Shown here: positions 20,449-38,679 of the stretch, piece by piece
How positions within the stretch are numbered: position 1 is the stretch's first letter
Layout: every line of letters begins with the position of its first letter
Assembly (NCBI RefSeq): GCF_000732605.1
Contig: NZ_JPME01000025.1
Location: 1-64,000 of the forward strand
Direction of reading: 5' to 3'
Origin: Lacrimispora celerecrescens
GTDB taxonomy: Bacteria > Bacillota > Clostridia > Lachnospirales > Lachnospiraceae
Length of the DNA stretch: 64,000 nucleotides
Notes under the pieces: generated by a model
What the model was told of the DNA's origin: nothing
The model's input: only the letters and a program-made list of their open reading frames with translations
The model's database searches: none
Position numbers and translations under genes: made by a program

Positions 20449-20485
20449 GAGTGTATAAGATGTTCCGATGAGGGGAGGGCAAACG

Positions 20486-21130
20486 ATGGATTCAAAGCTT
20501 GAACTGTTAACGCAGATCGCACGTGGAATTGCTACTCATTTTGGTAACAACTGTGAGGTAGTTATCCACGATATAAGGAAAGAAGATATAGAGAGTTCTA
20601 TTGTCTATATTGAAAACGGCCAGGTAAGCAACAGAAAGCTGGGGGATGGTCCCTCTGAAATCGTTCTGGAAACGTTAAAAAAGAACCCGGATCTTTTAAA
20701 AGACCGCTTATCCTATTTAACTAGAACCGATGATGGCAGGATCTTAAAATCCAGCACCATGTATATAAGAGGGAAGAACAACACCATTGATTATATTCTG
20801 GCTTTAAATTATGATATCACAGGCCTGCTTACCATAGACAATTCCCTAAAATCTCTTCTCTCCACCTCGGAAACAGAAGACGATGAGAAGCAGCCAAAAA
20901 GAATTACTCATAATGTAAATGATCTTCTTGACGCACTGATCGAACAGTCTGTTGCTTTGGTTGGCAAACCAGTCGCTCTTATGAGCAAGGATGACAAAGT
21001 TGCAGCGATCCAGTATTTAAATGATGCCGGAGCTTTCCTTATTACTAGGTCAGGCGACAAGGTTTCCAATTATTTTGGCATATCCAAATTCACTTTATAC
21101 AGTTATATGGATACTAATAAAGAAAAGTAA
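20486..21130 (+). CDS. YheO/DauR-type PAS and helix-turn-helix regulator
   Basis: A 214-residue regulator with a YheO-like PAS domain at the N-terminus (LTQIARGIATHFGNNCEVVIHDIRKEDIESSIVYIENGQVSNRKLGDGPSE) and a C-terminal helix-turn-helix (VAAIQYLNDAGAFLITRSGDKVSNYFGISKFTLYSYM). DauR, in the same family, controls D-arginine catabolism in Pseudomonas. Its place between ssnA-ygfK and ygeX makes it the likely controller of both purine arms, with a pathway intermediate as ligand (inferred). The Met at 20486 is chosen over 20468 because GGGGAGGG lies directly upstream of it. Confidence 0.88.
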   Translation: MDSKLELLTQIARGIATHFGNNCEVVIHDIRKEDIESSIVYIENGQVSNRKLGDGPSEIVLETLKKNPDLLKDRLSYLTRTDDGRILKSSTMYIRGKNNTIDYILALNYDITGLLTIDNSLKSLLSTSETEDDEKQPKRITHNVNDLLDALIEQSVALVGKPVALMSKDDKVAAIQYLNDAGAFLITRSGDKVSNYFGISKFTLYSYMDTNKEK

Positions 21131-25092: not shown

Positions 25093-25130
25093 ATTCACAT
25101 CGGGGCAACTGCTCCATATTTAAGAATATC

Positions 25131-25172
25131 AGGCGCACCTGCAGCCTACCAATGGATACAGGTGCGCCTTTT
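25131..25172 (+). terminator. terminator-like hairpin between ygeW and arcC
   Basis: AGGCGCACCTG (25131-25141) pairs perfectly with CAGGTGCGCCT (25159-25169) and is followed by TTTAAATAATT. It would end or attenuate the ygeX-ygeY-ygeW message, leaving arcC and the permease at lower or separately controlled levels. Confidence 0.7.
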
Positions 25173-25204
25173 AAATAATTCTTAATCACTAAGAGGATAG
25201 CAAA

Positions 25205-26149
25205 ATGGAAAAGAAGAAAAGAATTGTTATTGCGTTAGGCGGCAATGCTTTAGGTAACACTTTATCAGAGCAGATGGCTGCAGTAAAGATCACGTCAAAA
25301 GCAATCGTTGATTTGATCGAAGAAGGCTGTGAAGTAGTAGTAGTTCACGGCAACGGCCCACAGGTGGGTATGATTAACAACGCAATGAGCGCTTTAACAC
25401 GGGAAGATCCCAAACAGCCAAACACTCCTCTTTCCGTCTGTGTAGCCATGAGCCAGGCTTATATCGGCTATGACTTACAGAATGCTTTAAGAGAAGAGCT
25501 GGTTAACAGGAACATGAACAACATTCCTGTAACCACCATGATCACACAGGTTCGTGTGGATGAAAACGATCCTGCTTTTAACTCCCCCAGCAAGCCAATC
25601 GGTCATTTTATGACAGCAGAGGAAGCAAAACTGGCTGAAGAAAAGTACGGATACATCACAAAGGAAGATGCAGGACGGGGATACCGCCGTGTGGTAGCTT
25701 CTCCAAGCCCTGCAGAAATCATTGAAATCGGCGCAATCCGCTCCCTTGTGGAAGCAGGACAGCTGGTTATTGCCTGCGGCGGCGGCGGTATACCCGTTAC
25801 CCTTCAGGGAAATCATTTAAAAGGCGCAAGCGCAGTTATTGACAAAGATTTTGCAAGTGAATTGCTGGCAGAGGAACTGGATGCAGACTTCTTAATCATC
25901 CTCACAGCAGTTGAGAAAGTAGCAATAAACTTCGGTAAACCGGAAGAGAAATGGTTGGACGATATCACAACAGACGATGCCCGCAAGTATATTGGAGAAG
26001 GACACTTCGCTCCTGGCTCCATGCTGCCAAAGGTTCAGGCTGCCGTGAAATTTGCAGATTCCAAGGAAGGGCGTAAAGCGCTCATCACCTTGCTTGAGAA
26101 AGCCAAAGATGGAATCTTAGAGAAGACCGGAACTCACATTCATAAGTAA
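25205..26149 (+). CDS. arcC: carbamate kinase
   Basis: Carbamate kinase converts carbamoyl phosphate and ADP to ATP, ammonia and CO2. The 314-residue chain shows IVIALGGNALGN at the start, VVHGNGPQVG (about 48-57), GRGYRRVVASPSP (about 155-168), ACGGGGIPV (about 190) and IDKDFASELLA with the nucleotide site. No arginine deiminase or ornithine carbamoyltransferase is nearby, so here its carbamoyl phosphate most likely comes from YgeW. This is the substrate-level phosphorylation step of the pathway. Start after GAGGATAGCAAA. Confidence 0.95.
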   Translation: MEKKKRIVIALGGNALGNTLSEQMAAVKITSKAIVDLIEEGCEVVVVHGNGPQVGMINNAMSALTREDPKQPNTPLSVCVAMSQAYIGYDLQNALREELVNRNMNNIPVTTMITQVRVDENDPAFNSPSKPIGHFMTAEEAKLAEEKYGYITKEDAGRGYRRVVASPSPAEIIEIGAIRSLVEAGQLVIACGGGGIPVTLQGNHLKGASAVIDKDFASELLAEELDADFLIILTAVEKVAINFGKPEEKWLDDITTDDARKYIGEGHFAPGSMLPKVQAAVKFADSKEGRKALITLLEKAKDGILEKTGTHIHK

Positions 26150-26164
26150 AATTATGAATTTTTC

Positions 26165-26193
26165 TTTTATTTTTATGCAAAATATAGTATAAT
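26165..26193 (+). promoter_or_regulatory. candidate promoter for the NCS2 permease leader
   Basis: A consensus -10 TATAAT lies at 26188-26193 with a poor -35 (TTTTAT) 17 bp upstream. It sits just before the structured leader and would make the permease a separate transcript from arcC. Confidence 0.45.
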
Positions 26194-26220
26194 ATTACCG
26201 TTACTATTAGGCAAAATACC

Positions 26221-26364
26221 AAGATTCAAAGTCGTTGACCATCATAGAATTTATGATACGTCATTACAATAGGGGTATTGTAATCCATTGGGGGACTGGG
26301 GACTGTCAAATTATTTCTGAACAGTCCCTACAAGACTTTGAAAATCTTAGAAAAGAGAGGGACT
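26221..26364 (+). ncRNA. riboswitch-like structured leader of the purine permease
   Basis: A closing stem AAGATTCAAAGTC (26221-26233) with GACTTTG-AA-AATCTT (26334-26348) encloses three hairpins: ATCATA/TATGAT (26241-26257), ATTACAATA-GGGG-TATTGTAAT (26263-26284) and GGGACTG/CAGTCCC (26299-26328). AGTCCCT of the last hairpin is also complementary to AGGGACT (26358-26364), which contains the permease Shine-Dalgarno, so two exclusive folds could switch translation. It lacks the UCUACC core of purine riboswitches and matches no class I know. A palindromic mobile element (REP/MITE) is the main alternative. Confidence 0.55.
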
Positions 26365-26368
26365 ATCT

Positions 26369-27829
26369 TTGAATAAGCAAAACGACAAAGAACTGATCTA
26401 TCAACTGGAAGGCAGACCAAGTTTTAAAACTGCATTCCCACTAGGTTTACAGCACATACTGGCCATGTTTACGGGCAATTTAGCACCAATACTTATCATT
26501 GCCGGTATCTGTGGGTTAGAGCCAGCTGATAAGACCGTTATGTTATCTTCCGCAATGGTTGTATCCGGTGTAACCACCTTGTTTCAGTTGTATCCGCTCA
26601 AGCTCGGGAAGAGCTACCGCATTGGAGCGAATCTACCCATAGTCATGGGTACGTCCTTTGCATTTGTTTCCGTGGCTGCCATTGTTGCCACTCAAGTTGC
26701 ACCTTCCATGGGACTGACCGATCCGCGTGATATCTATGCGCTGGTTCTTGGCTGTTCACTTGTAGGTGGTCTTGTTGAAGTATTTATGGGATTCTTCTAT
26801 AAGAAACTTGCCAATCTGTTTTCACCAATCGTAGTGGGAACAACGCTCATTGCCATTGGATTAAACTTATTAAGCGCAGGCGCACGTTATTTTAACGGCG
26901 GTTCAGCTGCAGCGGCTAATCTGGCGGCATACAACGAGGATCCGGCTAAATATCAATTTTCAGGCGTATTTGGTTCAATGAAAAACGTAGGCATGGCGTT
27001 ATTTGTATTTGTCCTTGTATTATTGCTCCAAAAGTATGGCAAAGGCATTGTAAAGAATTCCGCTTTACTTTTTGGACTGGCTATCGGATATGTGGTGTCT
27101 ATTGCCTTAGGTATGGTAAATTTTGCACCGATTACAGCTGCTAAAGTTGTCTCCGTACCATTGCCATTTTATTTCGGCCTCAAATTCTCCATAGCTGGTA
27201 TCTTAAACTTCGCCCTGTTTTATGTCATTTCCGGACTGGAAACCATCGGTAACACCGGCGGTATCACCATTGCAGCATTTGACAGAGAACCTACCTCCGA
27301 AGAAACAGCCGGTGCCATCCTTGCAGATGCAGGCGGATCAATGTTAGCAGCTGTATTTAACGCACTGCCAAACACCGCGTTTGGACAGAATGCGGGCATT
27401 ATCTCCATGACAAGAATCGTGAACAAATGGTGCGTTGCCGTAGGAGCTATCTTCTTGGCTTTGTGCGGACTCGTTCCGAAATTAGCAGCTCTTTTCCAAA
27501 CCATCCCGGATGCAGTTTTGGGCGGCGCTATTATTTCTGTATTTGCCATGATTACATTAAATGGTATTAAGATGATTGCCAAAGCAGGTTTCTCCGAGAG
27601 AAACGTAACCATTATCGGTATTACACTGTCATTTGGTATTGGACTTACCTCCATGAGTCTGGCCGTGGAAACCTTCCCAGCGTTCATTCAGCCTTTATTA
27701 GAAGCCATTGCGCCATTAACAAGTGCACCGGCTGCTGTATGCTGTATCGTATCAATCTGCGCAAGCCTTTGCTTCCCTATGAGTAAAGAAGATAAAGAGA
27801 TGGCAAAAGCTGCTATGCAGGATGCGTAA
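26369..27829 (+). CDS. NCS2 family purine (xanthine/urate-type) permease
   Basis: A 486-residue membrane transporter of the nucleobase-cation symporter-2 family with about 14 helices. The family QH motif is in LGLQHILAMFTGN (about residues 26-38) and the NAT signature QNAGIISMTR (about 339-348) fits Q-N-x-G-x4-T-R, which is typical of xanthine/urate carriers rather than uracil carriers. It starts with TTG at 26369, with AGAGAGG about 9 bp upstream. It closes the plus-strand purine operon and ends at a strong bidirectional terminator. The exact substrate (xanthine, urate or both) cannot be fixed from sequence. Confidence 0.9.
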   Translation: MNKQNDKELIYQLEGRPSFKTAFPLGLQHILAMFTGNLAPILIIAGICGLEPADKTVMLSSAMVVSGVTTLFQLYPLKLGKSYRIGANLPIVMGTSFAFVSVAAIVATQVAPSMGLTDPRDIYALVLGCSLVGGLVEVFMGFFYKKLANLFSPIVVGTTLIAIGLNLLSAGARYFNGGSAAAANLAAYNEDPAKYQFSGVFGSMKNVGMALFVFVLVLLLQKYGKGIVKNSALLFGLAIGYVVSIALGMVNFAPITAAKVVSVPLPFYFGLKFSIAGILNFALFYVISGLETIGNTGGITIAAFDREPTSEETAGAILADAGGSMLAAVFNALPNTAFGQNAGIISMTRIVNKWCVAVGAIFLALCGLVPKLAALFQTIPDAVLGGAIISVFAMITLNGIKMIAKAGFSERNVTIIGITLSFGIGLTSMSLAVETFPAFIQPLLEAIAPLTSAPAAVCCIVSICASLCFPMSKEDKEMAKAAMQDA

Positions 27830-35647: not shown

Positions 35648-37042
35648 TTATATTAATATATATTTTAGGACAAATAATACTGCTAAAACATACATAAGGG
35701 TACTGATTTTCTTTTCTTTTGCTCTGCCTGTTAATACATTAATAACGACATAAGAGATAACTCCCATGGAGATTCCCTCGGAAATGCTGTACATAAAAGG
35801 CATAGCAATAATTGCGATATAGCATGGAATTGCCTCTGTGAAATCTGCAAAATCAACCTTGGTAACGGAAGTCAGCATTAAGAACCCTACCACTACCAAA
35901 GCCGGAGCCGTAGCAAAGGACGGAATGGCTAAGAAAATCGGGGATAAGAACAGGGATAAGCCAAACAAGATGGCTGCAACCACTGCTGTTAATCCGGTTC
36001 TGCCGCCTTCTGCAACACCGGCAGCACTTTCTACAAAGGTGGTGGTGGTGGAGGTACCGAATATCGCACCTGCAGTCGTACCAACGGCATCTGCCATTAA
36101 TGCGCCTTTAATTCGGGGAAGTTTTCCTTCCTTATCCAGCATATCCGCCTTGGAAGCTACACCGATTAAGGTTCCCAGTGTATCAAATACGTCAACAAAC
36201 AGGAATGCAAACATTACTACCAGGAAATCAAGGGATAGGATTTTGGAGAAATCCAGCTTGAAAAATGTCGGGGACATATCCGGAATCCCAAAACCTGCTG
36301 AAAAGTTAGGGAACACACTGAACATTCCCAGCTCAGGATTCGGTGTATATAAACCGACGGCCTGGCAGATCATACCCAGAACCCATGTAATAATAATTCC
36401 CCACAAAATGTTGCCCTTTACATTTTTTACTACCAGCACGGCCGTAATCAGAATACCGATAATCGCTAGTAACACTGTAATACCAACGGTATGGAAAGAA
36501 CCATCCGACAGAGACCCTTTGAAGGAATACATTGTTACGAGAGTTGCTCCATCCACAACGATCTTTGCATTCTGCAGTCCGATGAATGCGATAAACAAAC
36601 CAATACCAACGGATACAGCGTGTTTTAAATTCATTGGAATCGCGTTAAAAATCGCCTCTCGTACATTCGTCAGTGAAAGAATGATGAAAATAATACCTTC
36701 AACGAATACGGCAGTCAAAGCAATCTCCCATGTATAGCCCATGTTAAGGACTACGGTATATGCGAAATACGCATTAAGTCCCATACCTGGCGCCAGTACG
36801 AAGGGATAGTTTGCAAGCCCTGCCATTAAAAGGGTGGCAAACAGAGATGCAAGTGCAGTAGCCGTAAATACAGCTCCGCTGTCCATTCCCGCGGCACTTA
36901 AGATGCTTGGGTTAACTGCCAGAATATAAGCCATGGTCATAAATGTGGTGATACCGGCTACGATCTCGGTCCTTGCATCTGTGTGATTCTCAGATAAGTG
37001 AAATACCCGTTCTAAGAGTCCTCCGCTTTTTTGTGTTTCCAT
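35648..37042 (-). CDS. AzgA/PbuG-type guanine/hypoxanthine permease
   Basis: A 464-residue polytopic transporter of the AzgA branch of NCS2 permeases. Typical segments are TTFMTMAYILAVNPSILSAAGMD near the start, NYPFVLAPGMGLNAYFAYTVV, LKHAVSVGIGLFIAFIGLQNAKIVV, and GTSTTTTFVESAAGVAEGGRTGLTAV around residue 330. Family members carry adenine, guanine or hypoxanthine by proton symport. Its position between guaD and xdhA, under a guanine riboswitch, points to guanine/hypoxanthine. Start after AAGGAGGTAAAGT, 80 bp past guaD. Confidence 0.92.
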   Translation of the reverse strand: METQKSGGLLERVFHLSENHTDARTEIVAGITTFMTMAYILAVNPSILSAAGMDSGAVFTATALASLFATLLMAGLANYPFVLAPGMGLNAYFAYTVVLNMGYTWEIALTAVFVEGIIFIILSLTNVREAIFNAIPMNLKHAVSVGIGLFIAFIGLQNAKIVVDGATLVTMYSFKGSLSDGSFHTVGITVLLAIIGILITAVLVVKNVKGNILWGIIITWVLGMICQAVGLYTPNPELGMFSVFPNFSAGFGIPDMSPTFFKLDFSKILSLDFLVVMFAFLFVDVFDTLGTLIGVASKADMLDKEGKLPRIKGALMADAVGTTAGAIFGTSTTTTFVESAAGVAEGGRTGLTAVVAAILFGLSLFLSPIFLAIPSFATAPALVVVGFLMLTSVTKVDFADFTEAIPCYIAIIAMPFMYSISEGISMGVISYVVINVLTGRAKEKKISTLMYVLAVLFVLKYILI

Positions 37043-37122: not shown

Positions 37123-38403
37123 CTAAAAAATTCTACTTCCCCCCGTATATTTCCCCTTTAAATGCCTGTCATCGGACAGATAGATGAATCGTTCCAGTCT
37201 CTCCCTTAAGTTAAGGACCTGAGGATGAGGCAAACCACTGTCATCCAGAATCAATGCGTCAAATTCATAGCCTTCCAGGAAGCTTCCCACCTTTCCAAAG
37301 AAAGAGCCTCCGCCTAAGGTACCTAAATAAAATGCCTCTTCTACAGTTAATGGCTTTAAGCTTTCATCTTTTAGCCTCCATCTAAGCTTTGACACCTGAA
37401 TGGCATCTGCCATAGCGCGGAAAATGGATTCTCCGCTTCCTCCTGCCACGTCAGTTCCAAGCCCTACATTCAACTCATGGTCCAGATAAGTTCTGACCGG
37501 AGCGATCCCGGAAGATAAGTTGGTATTAGACTGTGGACAATGAGCGATATAAACCCCTCGCTCTTTTATTAATTCAATTTCCTCTTCGGAAGAAGAAACA
37601 CAATGAGCCATAACGGTCTTCCCGTTTCCTCCGAATAAGCCGAATTGATCATAAGCATCTCCGTAAAATTCAGAAGTCGGGCAAAGTTCTTTTACCCATG
37701 CGACCTCCCCCTGGTTCTCCGACAAATGGGACTGAACCGGGAGTCCGTGCTCCTTCTGCAGCCTTCCCAACCGTTCCATCAGATCATCGGTACAAGACGG
37801 AATAAACCGTGGTGTAAGGATAGGCTTTACGTTTTCATATTTGGATCCTATTTCTTCAAGCCAGCGGAGAGTTTCCTGCTCCGACTCTTCTGCTCCCTGT
37901 TCCCGTAAGTAATCCGGTGAATTCCGATCCATATTGACTTTACCAATCATGGTCTTTAAACCGGTTTCCTCCATCAGGTCCATTAAAAGCTCTGTGGCCG
38001 GCCTGTGGATCGTTCCAAAGATACAGGCCCTTGTAGTCGCGCTTTTTTTCATGGATTCTGCAAAAATTCCATAAGCTTTTTTTGCATATTCCAGATCGGC
38101 ATACTTGGCCTCCTCCGGAAATGTATTGGTGTTCAGCCAGTCCAAAAGCTCTAAATCCATTCCAAGACCCCGAAAAGCAAACTGGGGCGCATGAATATGA
38201 AGATCCACAAGTCCGGGTACAATGAGCATATCTCCCCAGTCCTCCAAAGGATAATCTGTAAACTGCACAGGAAGTTCTTTATAAACTCCTGCCGACTTCC
38301 CATCCTGACAGACCAAGTACCCCTGCTCCACCGTCTTTAACGAGCGGACATCTTCACTGTAACAAATGTTTCCCTTCAAAACAAAATTTTTACCACCAGT
38401 CAT
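37123..38403 (-). CDS. guaD: guanine deaminase
   Basis: GuaD hydrolyses guanine to xanthine and ammonia. The 426-residue amidohydrolase shows the guanine-deaminase signature PGLVDLHIHAPQFAFRG (about 63-79), then QSHLSENQGEV, MAHCVSSS, AHCPQSNTNLSSGIAPVR and GLGTDVAGGSG, which supply the zinc ligands and catalytic residues. It starts after GGAGGTTCT and is first in the operon guaD-permease-xdhABC. A guanine-class riboswitch lies about 170 bp upstream of its start, a direct link between substrate and gene. Confidence 0.94.
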   Translation of the reverse strand: MTGGKNFVLKGNICYSEDVRSLKTVEQGYLVCQDGKSAGVYKELPVQFTDYPLEDWGDMLIVPGLVDLHIHAPQFAFRGLGMDLELLDWLNTNTFPEEAKYADLEYAKKAYGIFAESMKKSATTRACIFGTIHRPATELLMDLMEETGLKTMIGKVNMDRNSPDYLREQGAEESEQETLRWLEEIGSKYENVKPILTPRFIPSCTDDLMERLGRLQKEHGLPVQSHLSENQGEVAWVKELCPTSEFYGDAYDQFGLFGGNGKTVMAHCVSSSEEEIELIKERGVYIAHCPQSNTNLSSGIAPVRTYLDHELNVGLGTDVAGGSGESIFRAMADAIQVSKLRWRLKDESLKPLTVEEAFYLGTLGGGSFFGKVGSFLEGYEFDALILDDSGLPHPQVLNLRERLERFIYLSDDRHLKGKYTGGSRIF

Positions 38404-38500: not shown

Positions 38501-38569
38501 CTATTTCCATTTGTTCACACGCGCATAATAAAAACACAACAAAAAAGCCGGGCTTATTGTGGCGTGGAA

Positions 38570-38632
38570 ACTTATAGGCAACTATTACGGTAGTTGGTAG
38601 AGACGCTCAACCAATTATGAGCATATATAAGT
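38570..38632 (-). ncRNA. purine riboswitch, guanine class
   Basis: Read on the minus strand, P1 is ACTTATA/TATAAGT (38626-38632 with 38570-38576), P2 GCTCA/TGAGC, the J2/3 core is TCTCTACC (UNUCUACC consensus), and P3 AACTA/TAGTT carries loop CCGTAA; the L2 loop TAATTGG supplies the two G bases that dock with CC of L3. The specificity base before TAT in J3/1 is C, as in guanine/hypoxanthine aptamers, not U as in adenine ones. It lies between the promoter at 38680-38709 and guaD. Confidence 0.9.
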
Positions 38633-38679
38633 TCCTTTGAATACTGATACTAAAAAATCCTGTAATTTGTGACAGGTAG

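Follow-up and report, generated by a model that had tools for sequence, protein, structure and literature searches.

A structured, putatively cis-acting RNA leader precedes the permease gene of a uric-acid gene cluster in Lacrimispora celerecrescens

What is the function, if any, of the palindromic leader that lies between the carbamate kinase gene arcC and an NCS2 permease gene in Lacrimispora celerecrescens? The initial annotation had read it as a riboswitch-like RNA with a sequestrable Shine-Dalgarno (SD) sequence and had named a mobile palindromic element as the main alternative. The window analysed here comprises 64,000 nucleotides of contig NZ_JPME01000025.1; the features of the locus are given in Table 1, and the folded part of the leader (26221-26348) ends 20 nt upstream of the permease start codon. 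The neighbouring genes carry the NCBIfam names ygfK, ssnA, ygeX, ygeY, ygeW and carbamate kinase, and all of these are among the genes of the E. coli uricolytic cluster listed in the available part of PMC12507026. Judged by sequence, the neighbours are genes of the reductive uric-acid pathway. The permease scored 337 bits against the pbuX cut-off of 414 and was below both the pbuX and the ncs2 cut-offs. Among solved proteins, the chains most similar to it carry the name uric acid-xanthine permease (lowest E 9.3e-48, in comparison to 4.2e-17 for the best uracil permease), which makes uric acid or xanthine its probable substrate. The earlier description of a purine permease in a purine operon is supported, the gene in question being an NCS2 permease among uric-acid pathway genes. 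Between ssnA and ygeX lies a gene (20468-21130) for a protein with PAS_6 and HTH_22 domains, which may regulate transcription of the uric-acid cluster.

Table 1. Features of the arcC-permease region in the window.
Feature	Position	Strand	Sequence and remarks
Carbamate kinase gene arcC/yqeA, upstream	25205..26149	+	TIGR00746
5' flank of leader	26207..26220	+	TTAGGYAAAATACC; conserved among five orthologs (alignment)
Closing stem P1, 5' strand	26221..26233	+	AAGATTCAAAGTC; 9 inner pairs 100% paired in five leaders, one pair changed on both sides
Hairpin P2	26236..26263	+	Small internal loop; 88% of cells paired, one pair changed on both sides
Hairpin P3	26264..26283	+	Perfect 8-bp stem, TTACAATA-GGGG-TATTGTAA; 92.1% paired, two pairs changed on both sides
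Hairpin P4	26297..26330	+	GGGGACTGT / ACAGTCCC; 96% paired, no pair changed on both sides
Closing stem P1, 3' strand	26334..26348	+	GACTTTGAAAATCTT; pairs with AAGATTCAAAGTC, 13 pairs, 2-base AA bulge
Shine-Dalgarno region	26355..26364	+	GAGAGGGACT; its AGGGACT is complementary to 26323-26329
Start-codon region	26367..26374	+	CUUUGAAU; 8/8 complementary to P1 5' strand 26224-26231; pairing absent in G008
NCS2 permease gene, probably uric acid/xanthine group	26369..27829	+	PF00860 (Xan_ur_permease); TTG start (ATG in G008)

The closing stem claimed in the initial annotation, with its 2-base bulge, was found exactly where it had been placed. The minimum free energy (MFE) of 26221-26348 was -41.5 kcal/mol, compared with a shuffle mean of -25.7 (z -4.61; 0/200 shuffles were as good), and in the wider stretch 26200-26380 the z value was -2.88, with 1/200 shuffles as good. 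By this energy model the fold, a closing stem round three hairpins, is real. The three hairpins had been described as two perfect ones and one with a GGGG tetraloop; P3 is indeed perfect and carries the GGGG loop and P4 is perfect over its 8-bp core (GGGACTGT/ACAGTCCC), whereas P2 is interrupted by its internal loop. A stretch of P2, AUCAUAGAA (26241-26249), is invariant in the five leaders described below.

When the 171-base leader was used as a query against its own 5.0-Mb genome, it matched itself, the other hits being nine stretches of 15-37 bases with E values no better than 0.2, and no second copy of the leader was found there. In 61 genomes (its own and relatives), DNA similarity gave matches in five at E<=0.01, all of one genus; the four other orthologs were recovered by plain DNA similarity with E values from 7e-81 to 1e-18. 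The orthologous permease (at least 94% identity) is present in the same five of the 25 genomes of the genus, three further matches there being 48% paralogs, and the gene lengths and gene order from ygfK to the permease agree in 5/5 genomes. A covariance model of the leader motif (R1, E<=1) gave one match in each of the same five genus genomes and none in the 20 without the orthologous permease. R1 was built from the five leaders, so that their own matches arise by construction, and DNA similarity had found them independently of it. These counts bear on the mobile-element reading, according to which a MITE or REP element was fixed in the ancestor of the species and survives as a fossil. REP and MITE repeats are palindromic and occur in multiple dispersed copies. 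The leader resembles them in its outer inverted repeat and inner palindromes (the GGGGACTG hairpin among them) and in being found in one genus only; it differs from them in having no dispersed copies and in occupying the orthologous place only. The P4 arms GGGGACTGT...ACAGTCCC occurred once in each of 9/250 family genomes, and their reversed control was found in 9 as well. Partial similarity over 37 bases was seen in G013 (E 0.009), with a counterpart in the own genome (E 0.2); both sites (loci L002 and L016) lie inside a gene, presumably one for phosphofructokinase, and were taken as chance. Copy number thus contradicts the alternative that the initial annotation had put first, and we consider a mobile element very improbable.

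The five leaders, those of the window, G014, G006, G013 and G008, were aligned in five rows (A3), all of one genus. In A3, 94.0% of 183 cells were paired, and the share was 34.6-43.4% when the partners were slid by 1-3 columns, a comparison in which the structure is favoured since it was derived from the same five sequences and in which cells count sequences, not events. Four pairs were changed on both sides (one in P1, one in P2 and two in P3). None of 500 shuffles equalled the alignment in covariation score or in the proportion of cells paired; the two-sided pair count was matched by 8/500 shuffles and the pair-type count by 22/500. This covariation comes from few events in five sequences of one genus, and it supports the view that the leader helices are kept with compensatory changes, within this genus only. 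The most divergent features were seen in G008, where P3 is rearranged or lost and J4/1 is changed; its leader alone had a z value of -1.23, with 25/200 shuffles as good, and its MFE fold differs. The symmetry of P3 is kept in G006 and G013, and J3/4 contains a 6-nt indel, so the junctions vary. Over the whole leader, 116/160 positions are identical in G008, which is about the level of fourfold sites. By blocks, which were chosen after the alignment had been seen, 26207-26249 was more conserved (39/43 identical to G008 versus 72.8% at fourfold sites; P 0.0037), 26250-26297 was below the fourfold level (21/45; P 0.0002) and 26298-26363 was not different from it (51/66; P 0.25). In the three closer genomes one of nine blocks reached P < 0.05 (26298-26363 in G006).

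The switch proposed in the initial annotation relied on the CAGTCCC arm of the third hairpin. The complementarity is present: AGTCCCT (26323-26329) can form 7 pairs with the AGGGACT of the SD region (26358-26364), and at least 6 pairs are available in all five leaders, with one G-U in G008 and C-A at the seventh position in G006 and G013. As a switch this pairing fared less well. In four of the five leaders the anti-SD fold was less stable than the P1 fold, by 5.8-8.1 kcal/mol when six real pairs were counted in G006 and G013 (6.5-8.8 kcal/mol when the seventh pair, there a C-A mismatch, was forced), and in G008 it was favoured by 1.1 kcal/mol. The predicted equilibrium probability that the P4 arm pairs downstream was 0.0 in four leaders and 0.62 in G008. 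Equally long complements arose per 1000 dinucleotide shuffles in 35 cases for the window, 24 for G014, 219 for G006, 258 for G013 and 147 for G008, each leader being tested at its own complement length (6-7 in the four others); with a wider SD region, a complement as long as that of the window appeared in 159/2000 shuffles. With 2-26% of shuffles doing as well, the anti-SD pairing is statistically weak as a modelled switch. A second alternative was also found, in which AUUCAAAG (26224-26231, in the 5' strand of P1) pairs at all eight positions with the region that holds the start codon. It is present in the four leaders other than G008 and is mutually exclusive with P1 in them; its fold lies above P1 by 3.1-5.6 kcal/mol in the ensemble calculation and by 3.6-6.6 kcal/mol by MFE, and it was matched by 63-99/2000 shuffles (3-5%). 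The two alternatives can also form within one nested fold, which is costlier still. Both carry a high energy cost in these models and lie close to chance; the predicted default state is ON in four leaders, and only that of G008 is predicted to be bistable. On such modelling, a switch is possible.

The dominance of the ON fold in 4/5 leaders would also suit a static intercistronic structure, which would mark where the mRNA is processed or decays between arcC and the permease gene and would protect the permease mRNA or set its level, sensing nothing. The variation of the junction strands and the occurrence of the leader in one genus only point in the same direction, as does a second strong hairpin that the gene row contains between ygeW and arcC. 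However, a stabiliser would not need the conservation of the 5' block or the invariance of AUCAUAGAA, and the predicted bistability of G008 does not fit it either. We regard such a static structure as a serious, though not the favoured, possibility. The ygeW-arcC gap itself (25093-25204) showed 93% mean column identity across the five genomes and a fold z value of -5.39. It contains AGGCGCACCTG...CAGGTGCGCC followed by TTTT, within a longer stem, which is perhaps a leaky terminator or attenuator; a terminator scan of the gap with a loop limit of 8 listed none. By eye, at least four of ten rows from other genera (G180, G408, G197 and G301) also show GC-rich hairpins in this gap.

At which level could the leader act? 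The same terminator scan listed no terminator-like site in 26000-26500, no T run was seen by eye 3' of P4, and no conserved reading frame crosses the leader; control, if any, would therefore be exerted on translation or stability. The reading frame deserves a closer look, since a short leader peptide of 45 or 39 codons, with a stop overlapping the permease start, could couple translation. Such a frame is open from 26235 (TTG) or 26253 (ATG) to 26372 in the window and in G014. From the ATG it has only 27 codons in G006 and 20 in G013, G008 lacks such an ATG and has another TTG-led frame that runs past the permease start, and no SD precedes the ATG by eye. With the frame not conserved, we rejected the peptide, which is the least probable of the explanations considered. 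Alternatively, the palindromes, P3 above all, might function not as RNA but as DNA operators that bind the PAS_6/HTH_22 regulator of the cluster or another factor. P3 is a perfect 8-4-8 palindrome whose symmetry is retained in two of the other genomes, as stated above, but it is lost in G008, and the arms of P1 are 100 nt apart while one of its pairs is changed on both sides. Similar palindromes (up to 2 mismatches) numbered 32 in the genome and 27 in the reversed control, so we discarded an operator regulon, and a scan listed no promoter-like site on the + strand in 26000-26500. DNA operators therefore appear decidedly unlikely. A separate promoter for the permease was likewise discarded: TATAAT-like words were seen by eye upstream of the leader in four genomes and are absent from G008.

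Outside the genus the leader was sought in several sets of genomes. Among 397 family genomes, R1 (E<=0.05) matched the own genome only, in a search with stricter filters by which weak matches may be lost. The ygeW gene is present in 64/397 of these genomes, and 50 of the 63 others with ygeW encode an NCS2 permease (E<=1e-40), whose identity to the permease of the window is 59-61% in the best three genomes and at most 47% in the rest. At E<=1e-110 the permease was found in 4/397 family genomes, and at E<=1e-130 in 3/368 order genomes, the own genome included in both cases. In 20 of the 63 other ygeW genomes that were examined, a permease gene lies shortly 3' of arcC in 11, at a gap of about 11-28 nt in six and about 78-226 nt in five, and R1 had no match at E<=5 in the stretches from these 20. 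Two alignments of other-genus stretches joined partly unrelated sequences and were used for gaps and by-eye hairpins only. Thirty further loci (L096 and 29 ygeW loci) gave one R1 match at E 4.9 and L028 gave one at E 0.43, inside a gene; both were taken as chance. Upstream of the four closest permeases outside the genus (L026-L028 and L096; 56-61% identity) R1 found nothing above chance. In L026, L027 and L096, about 12, 15 and 23 nt separate the permease frame from the gene before it, and the gap upstream of the L028 permease contains a purine riboswitch that has the orientation of the divergently transcribed neighbour. This riboswitch (L028 3067-3170) stands ahead of the gene divergent from the 59%-identical permease, in another genus. 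Among the genomes searched, the leader was thus confined to one genus and, within it, to the loci with this permease. The initial annotation had expected either many copies or a lack of covariation and conservation before homologous permeases if its reading was wrong. No repeats were found, and the leader is kept with compensatory changes within the genus; conservation before the closest permeases outside it was not found, and this corresponds to one half of the outcome that the initial annotation had named as refuting.

In L070 (G081, another genus), the ribosome site of the permease in the arcC-permease gap can sit, by eye, in a perfect 15-bp hairpin (TCCTCCTTAGGTTAT / ATAACCTAAGGAGGA). This is a different RNA, which could also hide the SD of a uric-acid-cluster permease.

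The leader had no Rfam match at the gathering threshold, and neither RF00167 nor the NMT1/xanthine riboswitch, which we take to be among the 4227 Rfam families used, was among the five weak hits up to E 10 on 26150-26420. Nor was a known RNA family for the leader found in the four orthologous 20-kb stretches. The leader goes with purine genes, as the purine riboswitch RF00167 does, but the covariance model of that family has no match to it, in agreement with the earlier remark that the purine-riboswitch core is absent. The only RF00167 match in the window is at 38555-38650 (-). This purine riboswitch stands ahead of the frames 37123-38403 and 35648-37042, which presumably encode an amidohydrolase/guanine deaminase-like protein and an AzgA-like permease, respectively. 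The NMT1/xanthine class, as described in the available part of PMC7373994, is an OFF switch formed by a hairpin with an internal bulge; its ligands are xanthine and uric acid, it goes with purine-oxidation genes, and its action is probably on translation. In the leader, by contrast, a closing stem surrounds three hairpins, and the gene that follows is one for uptake. The leader fits the general riboswitch trait of a conserved structured mRNA leader within one genus; no host outside the genus was found among the genomes searched, and the junctions vary. The phrase "uric acid riboswitch" and similar ones found no paper in the collection searched. That gut bacteria break down uric acid by an anaerobic, reductive pathway is a recent finding (PMC12507026); the word riboswitch does not occur in that paper, and its available parts contain no statement on how the pathway genes are switched on.

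Taken together, the structure seen in the initial annotation is confirmed and its interpretation is partly supported. We tentatively favour, as the most likely reading, a cis-acting structured mRNA leader of one genus that controls permease expression. As a part of this reading, a metabolite riboswitch for uric acid or xanthine is conceivable but unlikely; the same holds for its more specific form, in which a new and narrowly distributed riboswitch class senses uric acid or xanthine and turns the permease ON in a bacterium that has the anaerobic uric-acid pathway, the closing stem competing with the start codon. A cis-acting leader would set the output of uric-acid/xanthine permease from the gene with which the uric-acid cluster ends. 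In the presumed ON state, P1 would close the three-hairpin junction and leave the ribosome site free. In the presumed OFF state, P1 would open, its 5' strand would pair with the start-codon region and the P4 arm with the SD region. More permease would then be translated whenever P1 is stabilised, be it by a protein or by a ligand, for which an oxidised purine is the most plausible candidate. With a purely static role, the leader would still be a conserved one in the uric-acid pathway that no Rfam family covers. If the leader does sense uric acid or xanthine, the cluster would have a natural uric-acid sensor of its own, from which the development of urate biosensors could start.
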